DNA of 33,339 nucleotides from contig VBGJ01000031.1 of the NCBI GenBank assembly GCA_005880445.1, positions 1-33,339 of the forward strand. The letters are read 5' to 3'. The notes beneath the pieces were generated by a model. That model made no database searches. It had not been told where the DNA came from and saw only the letters and a list, made by a program, of their open reading frames with translations. Each line of letters begins with the position of its first letter. Within the stretch, counting starts at the first letter, position 1. The position numbers and the translations under genes were made by a program. This DNA comes from Chloroflexota bacterium. Its GTDB lineage: Bacteria > Chloroflexota > Dormibacteria > Aeolococcales > Aeolococcaceae. Below, piece after piece: positions 1,045-12,384 of this stretch.

Positions 1045-1116
1045 TACCCGCACGGGGAGTCGAACCCCGGTTACCACCTTGAAAGGGTGATGTCCTAACC
1101 GCTAGACGATGCGGGC
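1045..1116 (-). tRNA. tRNA-Glu (anticodon UUC)
   Basis: Reverse complement GCCCGCATCGTCTAGCGGTTAGGACATCACCCTTTCAAGGTGGTAACCGGGGTTCGACTCCCCGTGCGGGTA. Cloverleaf: acceptor GCCCGCA/TGCGGGT, anticodon loop CTTTCAA, T-arm CGGGGTTCGACTCCCCG. Confidence 0.95.
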
Positions 1117-8559: not shown

Positions 8560-8985
8560 CTAGTGGCGGCGGGCCGACGCGTCGCGAAACCGGCGCGCCA
8601 TCTCGGGAACGAGGTTGACGGCGACCACCGGGTGATCGAGCAGGAACTGCCGCAGCCCGCCCACCGGCAGCGTGACGCAGCGAAGCCGTGTCTCGGCGCG
8701 CACCGACGCGGTGCGCGGACCGCCGTCGAGCGCCGCCACCTCACCGAAGAAATCGCCGGGGCCGAGCGTGGCGACCGGGTGGTCGTCGATCAGGACCGAC
8801 GCCGTCCCCTCGAGGATGATGAAGAACTCCGGGCCCTCCATTCCTTCGGTGATGATCCCGTGCTCGGCCAGGAACGTCGCGTCATCGAGCTGCGCGGCGA
8901 TCCCATCGAGCTCCGCTCTCGGCAGTCCGCGGAACAGCGGCATCTTCTCGAGGGTGGGAATCACGTCCTCGCGCGTGGTGGCCAT
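8560..8985 (-). CDS. Single-domain cyclic nucleotide-binding (Crp/cNMP-BD) protein
   Basis: LEKMPLFRGLPRAELDGIAAQLDDATFLAEHGIITEGMEGPEFFIILEGTASVLIDDHPVATLGPGDFFGEVAALDGGPRTASVRAETRLRCVTLP: canonical cNMP-BD with GDFFGEVAALDGGPRTASV cassette; no HTH. Confidence 0.92.
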   Translation of the reverse strand: MATTREDVIPTLEKMPLFRGLPRAELDGIAAQLDDATFLAEHGIITEGMEGPEFFIILEGTASVLIDDHPVATLGPGDFFGEVAALDGGPRTASVRAETRLRCVTLPVGGLRQFLLDHPVVAVNLVPEMARRFRDASARRH

Positions 8986-9049
8986 CGGCGGTTTGCTCCC
9001 TGATTGGCTGGGGCGCGCAGTGTATCCCCCGAGGCCCGCCGTCGCGCTC

Positions 9050-10684
9050 TCAGTGCCCGGTCGCGAGCTGCACCGCCTTCACGAGCAGCATCAGGATCGC
9101 CACCACCAGGTAGCTGCTCAGCGCCGCCAACGCGATCTGGCGCGCGCGCGAGGGAGCGGGCCGCGTGAGGAGCGCGACCGGTGGCATCCGCCACGTGTCG
9201 CGGTCCTCCCGTGCGGAGGCCGGCACCCGCGCGCCTGCTCCACCTCGCTGCACGAGCGCCAGCGAGACCAGCGCCGCAGCCAGGATCGACGCGAGCACAA
9301 CCAGGAGCACCACGATGTCGAGCGACGGGAAGATGGTCGTGGCCACCAGGATGAGAGACAGCACGATCAGCACACCCAGGATCACGCTCGCCAGCGCGTT
9401 GAGCCAGGGTCGGTTCACCCAGGGACCGAGCACATCGCGGTCGTTGCAGAGCAACAGGAGAAACAGGCTCGCGCTGGGCAGCAGCAGGCCGGCAAGCGCC
9501 TGCACCGCCGTCGTGAAGAGACCGAGGGGCGCCCCAGGGATGAGGACGATTGCCGCCGCCAGCGTGACAAGAACCGTGAAGCTCGCGTAGAAGGGCTTCG
9601 CCTCGCTCCACGGCCGGTGCAGCGAGTGGCGAATGCCGAACACGTCGCCGAACGCATATGACGTCGCCAGCGTCACCGCGCTGGCGCCGATGATGGATGC
9701 GTCGATGAGCACCACCGCGAAGATGGCACCGGCGGACGAGCTCACATGCCGGGCCAGACCGGTCGCGACCGCCTGGGCGTTGACGAAGTGCCCCGCTTCC
9801 GGTGCGCCCTGAAACGCCGCAGCCGCGGTGATCATGACGGCCGCGGCCCCGACGATGACGACCAGCGCGCCGATGACCGTGTCGGCGCGCTCGTATGGAA
9901 TCCAGCGCGGCGTGATCCGCTTGTCGATGACGTTCGACTGCTGAAAGAACAGCTGCCACGGCGCCACCGTGGTGCCGACGATGGCGATGATGAGCAGCAC
10001 CGAATTCGATGTGATGCCGCCCTGTATGCCGGGGACAACCAGATCGTGCAGTATCGCGCCGCCGGTTGGGTGCGAGAGCACCGCGAGCGGTATGACGAGC
10101 AGGTTTCCCACCAGGAACGCAAACATCATGCGCTCCCAGGTGGCGAATCGCCCGGTGACGGTGATTCCCACCAACAACAGTGCGGCGATGGGCACTGCGA
10201 TGAACGGCGACAGGCCGAAGTACGCAGCGCCGAGGCTGACGCCGATGAACTCCGTGGTGATGGTGAGGAAATTGAGCAGGAACAGGTCGCCGACGGAAAA
10301 GAATCCCCAGAACCTTCCGAAGCGCTCGAAGATGAGTCGCGCGTGTCCCACACCGGTGACGGCGCCCAGCCGCACCACCATCTCCTGGTTGACGATGAGC
10401 ACGGGGATGAGCAGCAAGAGCGTCCACAACAGGCTCGTGCCGTGGTTCTGCCCCGCCTGGGCGTAGGTGGCCACGCCACCGGCGTCGTTGTCGCCCACCA
10501 TGACGATGAGACCCGGACCCATGATCGCCAGCAGCGCAAGCATTCGCCCGCGCCACGAGCGGCGGACAACCTCGTGCTCGCGGATGGTGCCGAGCGCGCC
10601 CTTGATGTCGCCCAGGTGCGCGTCGTCGAGGACGGCGGACGCACGGGTCGAGCGCCGAGTGTTGTCAGACTTCTCGTCGATCAT
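9050..10684 (-). CDS. NRAMP (SLC11)-family transporter of a non-canonical, putatively Mg2+-related (NRMT-like) type
   Basis: 544 aa, multi-TM. TM1-like segment MGPGLIVMVGDNDAGGVATYAQAG aligns to NRAMP GPG...DPGNxAT. TM6-like segment IVGTTVAPWQLFFQQS aligns to the MPH helix. Start chosen at ATG 10684 with GAGG Shine-Dalgarno 6 nt upstream. Confidence 0.88.
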   Translation of the reverse strand: MIDEKSDNTRRSTRASAVLDDAHLGDIKGALGTIREHEVVRRSWRGRMLALLAIMGPGLIVMVGDNDAGGVATYAQAGQNHGTSLLWTLLLLIPVLIVNQEMVVRLGAVTGVGHARLIFERFGRFWGFFSVGDLFLLNFLTITTEFIGVSLGAAYFGLSPFIAVPIAALLLVGITVTGRFATWERMMFAFLVGNLLVIPLAVLSHPTGGAILHDLVVPGIQGGITSNSVLLIIAIVGTTVAPWQLFFQQSNVIDKRITPRWIPYERADTVIGALVVIVGAAAVMITAAAAFQGAPEAGHFVNAQAVATGLARHVSSSAGAIFAVVLIDASIIGASAVTLATSYAFGDVFGIRHSLHRPWSEAKPFYASFTVLVTLAAAIVLIPGAPLGLFTTAVQALAGLLLPSASLFLLLLCNDRDVLGPWVNRPWLNALASVILGVLIVLSLILVATTIFPSLDIVVLLVVLASILAAALVSLALVQRGGAGARVPASAREDRDTWRMPPVALLTRPAPSRARQIALAALSSYLVVAILMLLVKAVQLATGH

Positions 10685-10694
10685 GTCGGACCTC

Positions 10695-10714
10695 GTGCCG
10701 TCGAGCGACGGCAC
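10695..10714 (-). promoter_or_regulatory. Perfect hairpin immediately upstream of the NRAMP-gene Shine-Dalgarno
   Basis: GTGCCGTCG-CT-CGACGGCAC is a 9-bp perfect inverted repeat directly abutting the GAGG SD (10691-10694). Confidence 0.45.
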
Positions 10715-10850
10715 AGCTGGCGGCGATGCCCGCTCAGCGGCTTACGACGTGACCAAAACCGTGAGCGAGCCTGCAGGAGGCAGCGGTTGGTGAGGACTTC
10801 CGTCGTCGTCCATCGCGGCCTCCGAGCGCCCGACCGTCGGTCGCACCGCT

Positions 10851-10916
10851 GAAGGGGTGGCGCCCGGCGGGCTCCGGCCTCATCAACCGGTCACGCGCCG
10901 GCTGATGCACCCCTTC
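10851..10916 (-). promoter_or_regulatory. Putative expression-platform stem downstream of the M-box
   Basis: Minus strand GAAGGGGTG ... CACCCCTTC (9-bp perfect) enclosing CATCAGCCGG-CGCGTGA-CCGGTTGATG (10 bp with one G-U). No poly-U follows. Confidence 0.5.
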
Positions 10917-11066
10917 TCGTCAGAGCTTTGGCGCTGAACGGCGTAGTCCGGTCGGTCAGCCACTTAGGGAAACCCCTTGTGCCGGGGAAACCTGGTCTGA
11001 CCCGGAGCGTGTCTCCACGGGTGGGGTCAGTGGCCTGTGTCCGTTCAGCCGCCTCGCCGAACGAGG
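10916..11066 (-). promoter_or_regulatory. M-box (ykoK leader) Mg2+ riboswitch aptamer
   Basis: Minus strand: CCUCGUUCGGCGAGGCGGCUGAACGGACACAGGCCACUGACCCCACCCGUGGAGACACGCUCCGGGUCAGACCAGG...GGCUGACCGACCGGACUACGCCGUUCAGCGCCAAAGCUCUGACGAG. It matches the Bacillus M-box as I recall it: CGUUAGGUGAGGC, GGAGAUACGCUGCUGCCC, GACGCC..GGGUCAACAG, CCUAUGCCAUACAGUGCUAAAGCUCUACGA. P1 CUCGUU/GACGAG. Confidence 0.85.
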
Positions 11067-11091
11067 TGCGGCTTTACCGCCGTCAAGTCTA

Positions 11092-12384
11092 TCAGCCGCT
11101 GCTGGCGTCGGCCTCCGCACGACGGCGCCACGAATCGGGGAGCATCGCCTCGAGCACGTCGTCGACGGTGATGACGCCGATGATGTGATCCGCATCGTCG
11201 ACCACGGGAGCGCACGTGAGGTTGAAGTCCGCCATCATGCGCGCCACCTCGGGGAAGTCGTCTGTCGGGTGCACGTGAGTCTTGCCGCGCTGCTTCAAAT
11301 CGGAGAGATGATCACCGTCGGTGTGCTGCACGAGCAGCAGCAGCGGGACCGCGCCGGCGAGGCGGCCTTCGGTGTCGGTGAGGAAGATGTCGGCGGCGAT
11401 CTGCTCCGACACGTCTGCCGAGCGCACGGCCGCGAGCGCATCTGAGACCGTGCCCTCTTCGGGCACCGAGACGAAATCCGGACTCATCAGCCCACCGGCG
11501 CTGTCGGCGTTGTAGCTGAGCAGCGCGCGCACCTTCGCCTGCTGGGCCGGCGGCAGCAGGGCGAGGATCGGCGCGCGGCGTTCCTGGTCGAGCTCGGTGA
11601 TCAGGTCGGCGGCGTCGTCCGTTCCCATCTCGGCGAGCACCGCCGCCGCCTCTGCGTCGGAACGCGACTTGAGAAACTCGACCTGATGCTCGGTGTTCAG
11701 CTCTTCGAACACGTCCGCCTCGAGCTCGGGGTCACCGTGCACCGCTGAGATGATCTCTTCTCCTTCCTCGTGCGACGCGTGCTCGACGATGTCGGCGATC
11801 TGCGCGGGGTGGAGACGGCGCAGGCGGCGTAACGGGAGCAGCAGCCGCGAGGTGGGCACGTGTCCCACGAACGGCTCGACATTCGCCCAGTCGACAAACC
11901 CGCGCGTCTCGCGTGGGCGCGACCGCAGCCGCCGTGGGAGCAGGCGCCGGAGGAAGCTGCCCCTGCCGGGCTCGACGCCGACCACCCGCCACGCGTCCCC
12001 GCCCCGGGCCAGCTCGATGTCGTTCGCGGTGACGAGCCGTCCCGAGTCGACGCTGATCACGCTCCGGCCGAGCACGTCCTCGCGCAGCAGCACCTCGCCC
12101 TGGCGTCGCTCGAAGCGCGCCAGGCTCAGCATCTCGCCGGTCAGCTGCACGCCCTCCGCGGTCAGATCACCGATGCGGTTGAGCGGGACGAACAGGCGCC
12201 GGCCGGCGATGCGCCCGACGAGCCCGCTCACCGGCGGATAGCCGCCTTCGGCGAGGCGAACGATGACGTCGTTGATGCGCCCGAGCCTCTCGCCGGCACG
12301 GTCGACGATCCGGCTGCCCACCACTTGGGTCAGCCACAGACGGGCCGCGGGCTGGGCCGTGTCTCCCGCCGGTGAGAGCTCCAT
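11092..12384 (-). CDS. Soluble MgtE N-domain + CBS-pair protein with N-terminal PRC-barrel-like region; no transmembrane pore domain
   Basis: LHPAQIADIVEHASHEEGEEIISAVHGDPELEADVFEELNTEHQVEFLKSRSDAEAAAVLAEMGTDDAADLITELDQERRAPILALLPPAQQAKVRALLSYNADSAGGLMSPDFVSVPEEGTVSDAL (MgtE_N and CBS1) ... CAPVVDDADHIIGVITVDDVLEAML (CBS2), ending at residue 430 without hydrophobic helices. Confidence 0.92.
   Translation of the reverse strand: MELSPAGDTAQPAARLWLTQVVGSRIVDRAGERLGRINDVIVRLAEGGYPPVSGLVGRIAGRRLFVPLNRIGDLTAEGVQLTGEMLSLARFERRQGEVLLREDVLGRSVISVDSGRLVTANDIELARGGDAWRVVGVEPGRGSFLRRLLPRRLRSRPRETRGFVDWANVEPFVGHVPTSRLLLPLRRLRRLHPAQIADIVEHASHEEGEEIISAVHGDPELEADVFEELNTEHQVEFLKSRSDAEAAAVLAEMGTDDAADLITELDQERRAPILALLPPAQQAKVRALLSYNADSAGGLMSPDFVSVPEEGTVSDALAAVRSADVSEQIAADIFLTDTEGRLAGAVPLLLLVQHTDGDHLSDLKQRGKTHVHPTDDFPEVARMMADFNLTCAPVVDDADHIIGVITVDDVLEAMLPDSWRRRAEADASSG

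Follow-up and report, generated by a model that had tools for sequence, protein, structure and literature searches.

A predicted NRAMP-related Mg2+ transporter gene preceded by an M-box riboswitch and a conserved short open reading frame in a Dormibacterota-type genome

NRAMP-related Mg2+ importers under M-box control, termed NrmT and encoded beside an MgtE-like fragment, were described by Shin et al. in 2014, with many of the fragments being riboswitch-regulated and co-transcribed, and the same authors conjectured that the fragment exerts cytoplasmic feedback on the transporter (PMC4072509). In the metal site of these transporters, also called NRMTs, DxxG-TxxA/T replaces DxxN-A/CxxM (PMC8806188). 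A translational M-box platform has been demonstrated experimentally at Mycobacterium tuberculosis pe20, where an anti-Shine–Dalgarno (anti-SD) strand pairs either with the initiation region of an upstream open reading frame (uORF), uORF2, or with the M-box end; the uORF2 peptide, Rv1805A, is of the type MSxxDSP..., with proline at position 7, and was reported as mycobacteria-specific (PMC12810186). In the leader peptide MgtL, an early acidic motif together with proline leads to ribosome drop-off at low Mg2+, with a dependence on EttA (PMC11282234). Here we describe a locus in a 33,339-nucleotide stretch of a Chloroflexota genome (assembly GCA_005880445.1, contig VBGJ01000031.1), hereafter the window, in which an MgtE-like gene is followed by an M-box, a conserved uORF and an NRMT gene. 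The nearest named relatives of the window are Candidatus Dormiibacterota metagenome-assembled genomes.

Four predicted elements of the locus are co-directional on the minus strand: a gene for an MgtE-like protein, the M-box, an NRAMP-family gene and a gene for a cNMP-binding protein. The initial annotation, made from the letters alone, had listed all four, and all are confirmed, by Pfam matches, a cmscan score of 121.8 bits and a gap of 64 bp between the NRAMP stop and the cNMP gene; it overlooked a PRC barrel on the MgtE-like protein and the conserved uORF at 10742–10813. We read the locus as a Mg2+-import system of the known NrmT/NRMT kind, in which a translational M-box probably gates the uORF, whose translation in turn opens the NRMT start. 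The M-box would be part of the importer transcript, which would start where the sensor gene ends or close by. With enough Mg2+, the P1 helix of the M-box would form, releasing the anti-SD, and the uORF would be blocked; at low Mg2+, P1 would open, its 3′ strand would take up the anti-SD and the uORF would be translated. Ribosomes that reach the uORF end would then disrupt the base pairs masking the NRMT start, and the pore-less MgtE protein would probably sense cytosolic Mg2+ and feed back post-translationally on the importer.

The M-box aptamer (RF00380; 10904–11072, minus strand) scores 121.8 bits against a threshold of 44 (E 5e-27) and is full length, spanning positions 1–169. Because it lies between the sensor gene and the transporter gene, it can control the latter, not the former. 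A −10-like hexamer, TAGACT, with TGA (extended −10) can be read directly after the sensor stop (11086–11091, minus strand), and TGATAGACT, just 3′ of that stop, could serve the M-box transcript as its promoter; a sigma-70 consensus scan did not report the candidate at 11086–11091. No intrinsic terminator was found between the M-box and NRMT (10904 to 10684), as a canonical transcriptional platform would have, which points to a translational or Rho-dependent platform and does not weaken the aptamer call. The RNA part of the locus is more elaborate than the initial annotation had proposed, with no terminator after the M-box and a conserved uORF in between. A search for another known RNA family 3′ of the M-box gave nothing credible (Acido-1, 16.9 bits against 50, on the opposite strand).

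The uORF (10742–10813, minus strand; 23 amino acids, MDDDGSPHQPLPPAGSLTVLVTS), read from its conservation and profile rank as a uORF2/Rv1805A-like leader peptide, begins with MDDDGSPHQPLPP 91 nucleotides after the M-box end, behind a strong Shine–Dalgarno (SD) sequence, GGAGG (10819–10823, minus strand), that is kept in relatives, and has proline at position 7. It precedes NRMT in 17 of 17 Dormibacterota-type leaders, mostly without a detectable M-box; the aligned leaders comprise 16 close relatives of this type, all with the uORF, whose products start, for example, MEGDDSPNPR.., MDDGESPTSR.., MDAGDSPTSR.., MDGGDSPQSR.. or MEDGDSRRSG... In actinobacterial NRMT leaders, the uORF takes a CTG-start version, LSADRGSPHQP.., the CTG starts in these relatives being inferred; such uORFs occur in L111, L066, L073, L075 and L049, leaders in which no M-box was detected. 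In the leader of L062, likewise without a scored M-box, the sequence CGAGAAGGGACGCG ahead of the uORF may be what is left of an M-box 3′ end. Codon 6 is AGT almost invariantly in Dormibacterota-type leaders, on which basis conservation of the uORF start could conceivably act at the RNA level alone; the serine in the same DGSP of L111 is encoded by TCA, which favours conservation of the peptide.

Similar peptides lie behind mycobacterial-type M-boxes. In the Actinomycetota M-box sample, four genomes have three or four M-boxes each, with PPE-like or ileS-like genes downstream, and by these genes and the M-box number we take them to be mycobacteria. Their M-boxes are mostly followed, 91–96 nucleotides on, by AGGAGGTGAG.., MSSSDSPDRS.. 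or MSPGDSPYPK.., peptides that agree with the published uORF2 and its proline at position 7 (PMC12810186). Of 328 starts in the window that follow an SD, the uORF ranks first against a profile built on mycobacterial uORF2; the uORFs of L003, L036 and L037, at 8–9 bits, score higher than all 328. At only 0.4 bits, the window peptide comes 30th when all 3580 starts are counted, so that for its assignment we rely on where it lies and on the intermediate relatives. Judged in this way, the window uORF is likely to be homologous to mycobacterial uORF2, and our comparisons suggest that this type of peptide is not restricted to mycobacteria, contrary to the published account (PMC12810186). Four mycobacterial-type loci (L156, L159, L161 and L162) carry the M-box, a uORF2 (MSPxDSPYP..) and an NRMT of 51–53% identity in that order, and probably represent the ‘Mn2+-type’ class, annotated as manganese transporters, of that study (PMC12810186).

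The leader contains candidate pairing partners for a switch of the pe20 kind. The 3′ strand of M-box P1, GAAGGGGTG (10908–10916, minus strand), is a candidate anti-anti-SD, perfectly complementary over 9 bp to CACCCCTTC (10851–10859), which lies within the candidate anti-SD CACCCCTTCAGCG (10847–10859, minus strand); the latter can pair with the P1 3′ strand or with the SD region of the uORF. Against shuffled sequences, the pairing of M-box end and anti-SD has p 0.033 in the window and 0.007 in L122, and was matched by 0 of 300 shuffles in L114; two of its pairs are compensatory between the window and L122. Further downstream, the minimum free energy fold places the uORF 3′ end (10745–10754) on the NRMT start (10679–10688), forming a structure at 10679–10754 (minus strand) that encloses a hairpin at 10695–10714, just 5′ of the NRMT SD. 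A consensus structure around this SD in 13 leaders has 6 pairs changed on both sides, and its covariation score was reached by 0 of 500 shuffles. At single loci, the pairing of the uORF end with the NRMT SD is weak, and folding with ribosomes at different positions gave mixed results. The proposed coupling between uORF translation and the NRMT start is drawn from folding models of this kind.

The uORF product opens MDDDGSP, with the early acidic residues and the proline of MgtL-type leaders, and this brings in a different reading, in which the acidic, proline-containing uORF itself senses Mg2+ and the leader holds two sensors in series. Low Mg2+ would cause ribosomes to fall off at the acidic N terminus, changing the leader fold or the access of Rho, and NRMT would be made; we give this scheme limited credence. 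Dormibacterota-type uORFs have on average 2.5 acidic residues in codons 2–5, compared with 0.35 in 289 background starts, and 10 of 12 carry E/D-X0-1-E/D near the start, against 10% of the background; the uORFs of more distant relatives start MDPGS or MEPGS, and the retention of the uORF without an M-box in most Dormibacterota-type leaders fits an independent sensing role. Set against this, the mycobacterial and CTG-start versions mostly have a single early acidic residue, no EttA orthologue was found above the cut-off, and drop-off at low Mg2+ would act in the wrong direction if the end of the uORF must be translated for NRMT to start. Only tentatively, then, might one picture a leader peptide of wider occurrence than the mycobacterial M-box system, serving NRMT importers in several phyla, whether an M-box is present or not, and adding a second, independent Mg2+ sensor to the same leader.

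The transporter gene (9050–10684, minus strand) encodes 544 amino acids with a Pfam Nramp match (PF01566, E 1.1e-73). It starts with ATG behind an SD, GAGG; a GTG at 10714 is likewise open. The motifs DNDAGG in transmembrane segment 1 (TM1) and TTVAPW in TM6 carry the NRMT metal-site signature and are near-invariant among aligned homologues. Among solved structures, the protein is nearest to EleNRMT (7QIA, 192 bits), followed by a PDB entry at 64 and MntH entries at 44 or below, which places it closer to NRMT than to the Mn/Fe NRAMPs; by sequence, the protein is an NRMT, and by family a predicted Mg2+ transporter. No CorA, MgtE pore or MgtA-type ATPase was found in the host genome (86% complete), and NRMT may therefore be the main Mg2+ importer of the host. 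That the protein instead imports Mn2+ (or both Mn2+ and Mg2+), with only a loose link to Mg2+ control, strikes us as very improbable: Acidobacterium capsulatum NrmT rescued Mn2+ transport (PMC4072509) and EleNRMT carries Mn2+ too (PMC8806188), but the window gene combines M-box control with the full NRMT metal-site signature, and Shin et al. regarded the riboswitch as a useful marker of Mg2+ specificity (PMC4072509).

Upstream of the M-box, the gene at 11092–12384 (minus strand) encodes a 430-amino-acid protein with MgtE_N (E 6.5e-23) and CBS (E 6.5e-15) domains and a weak N-terminal PRC-barrel match in Pfam, and its PDB matches are the cytosolic domains of MgtE (2oux and 2yvy, E about 1e-29). 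Pfam found no MgtE pore domain in the protein, and PF01769 was not found in the host genome. In Thermus thermophilus MgtE (TtMgtE), the cytosolic Mg2+ sites involve D91/D247, D95, D226/D250 and E59 (PMC5882242). At the positions of TtMgtE E59, D91, D95, D247 and D250, the aligned window residues are D, D, D, D and E; among about 101 homologues, the first four are acidic almost always and the D250 position is E or D in most. It is plausible that the protein senses Mg2+ with an altered set of sites. The conserved neighbourhood that the initial annotation had proposed to look for is present: an MgtE_N gene adjoins NRAMP/NRMT in about 72 of 80 related loci, far beyond chance. The M-box also lies between sensor and transporter in L048, L051, L065, L067, L092 and L104; it lies 5′ of the MgtE-like gene in many loci sampled from Actinomycetota and in some loci of the window’s class, and in a third type the MgtE-like gene is followed by NRMT within about 60 nucleotides, without a leader. 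Some Dormibacterota (L032, L038 and L101) have a tandem pair of NRMT genes behind a single MgtE-like gene. In L004/L114 (G045), M-box and NRMT are kept, no MgtE-like gene was found beside NRMT in the locus fetched, and the M-box has a tRNA on its 5′ side.

The adjacency and the near-invariant acidic residues would also suit the model of the initial annotation, with direct control of NRMT by the riboswitch and gating of NRMT by the MgtE fragment; the uORF would then be no more than a by-product of the leader sequence. Shin et al. had voiced the same feedback speculation for this combination, of which the annotation knew no experimental description (PMC4072509), and the module as seen there is accordingly not new. 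As a full account of the locus, this model seems doubtful to us, since the uORF N terminus, its SD and its distance from the M-box are conserved across phyla and since, in the single published test, co-expression of the A. capsulatum fragment gave no better Mg2+ rescue (PMC4072509).

Several observations weigh against the reading that we prefer, a Mg2+ importer whose M-box gates a uORF coupled to the NRMT start. The pairing of anti-SD and uORF SD in the window, drawn by eye, is no better than shuffled (p 0.32), its duplex energy not being significant because GC-rich shuffles pair well too. In the window, the consensus structure around the NRMT SD lacks its outer stem, and the modelled accessibility of that SD does not change with a ribosome at the uORF stop (0.16 throughout in the window). 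The host genome holds two CNNM/CorC-type proteins, so NRMT may not be its sole Mg2+-related transporter. The Mg2+ module as first proposed is supported by the NRMT site, by EleNRMT as nearest structure, by a bona fide M-box and by the acidic MgtE-site residues; it is weakened at the sensor, where the fragments depart from MgtE at two cytosolic Mg2+ ligands: D226 is replaced by N, and E216, a position that we take to belong to the cytosolic Mg2+ sites, is variable. Finally, the A. capsulatum NrmT encoded beside an MgtE fragment appeared mainly Mn2+-specific (PMC4072509).

On the other side of the transporter, the gene at 8560–8985 (minus strand) encodes a lone cNMP domain of 141 amino acids (Pfam cNMP_binding, E 1.1e-16). 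The initial annotation was least certain of this member; the gene adjoins the NRAMP gene in the window, but among related NRAMP loci it is kept 3′ of NRMT only in the close relatives L003, L037, L042 and L062. A core role is ruled out for most relatives, in which it does not stand beside NRMT; the protein is a lineage-specific neighbour whose membership of the module is doubtful. Elsewhere in the window, an Rfam scan found a tRNA gene at 1045–1116 (minus strand, 61.6 bits).

We know of no role for Rv1805A of M. tuberculosis. The presence of a likely counterpart before NRMT in other phyla, also at loci where no M-box was detected, points to the control of Mg2+ importers, rather than PE/PPE biology, as its conserved role, and suggests that the mycobacterial ‘Mn2+-type’ M-box operons encode NRMT Mg2+ importers. 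In the literature searched, we found no description of an M-box/uORF control layer before NRMT outside mycobacteria, and the system offers simple reporter tests of a riboswitch and a leader peptide acting in series.

Among known systems, the locus resembles that of Clostridium acetobutylicum NrmT (Ca_c0685/Ca_c3329) in its NRAMP-related Mg2+ transporter family, its M-box and its adjacent gene for MgtE cytosolic domains, and differs from the published NrmT system in having the M-box between fragment and transporter, a PRC barrel on the fragment and a uORF after the M-box (PMC4072509). With EleNRMT (PDB 7QIA), the window transporter shares the DxxG-TxxA site and a tryptophan in place of the first proton-pathway histidine (PMC8806188), whereas it is longer, with a C-terminal extension, and is known here from its sequence alone. 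With MgtL of Escherichia coli and Salmonella mgtA, the uORF has in common early acidic residues, proline and a place ahead of a Mg2+ importer gene (PMC11282234); the RNA is an M-box here and a different one there, and the likeness is not based on sequence homology. The layout is shared with the M. tuberculosis pe20 and rv1535 M-boxes, with about 91 nucleotides from the M-box to an SD and a short ORF of the form MxxxxSP, a candidate anti-SD and anti-anti-SD and no intrinsic terminator (PMC12810186). The translational platform that we propose for the window would be of the pe20 kind, set in a different phylum and leading into an NRMT gene instead of PE/PPE genes.

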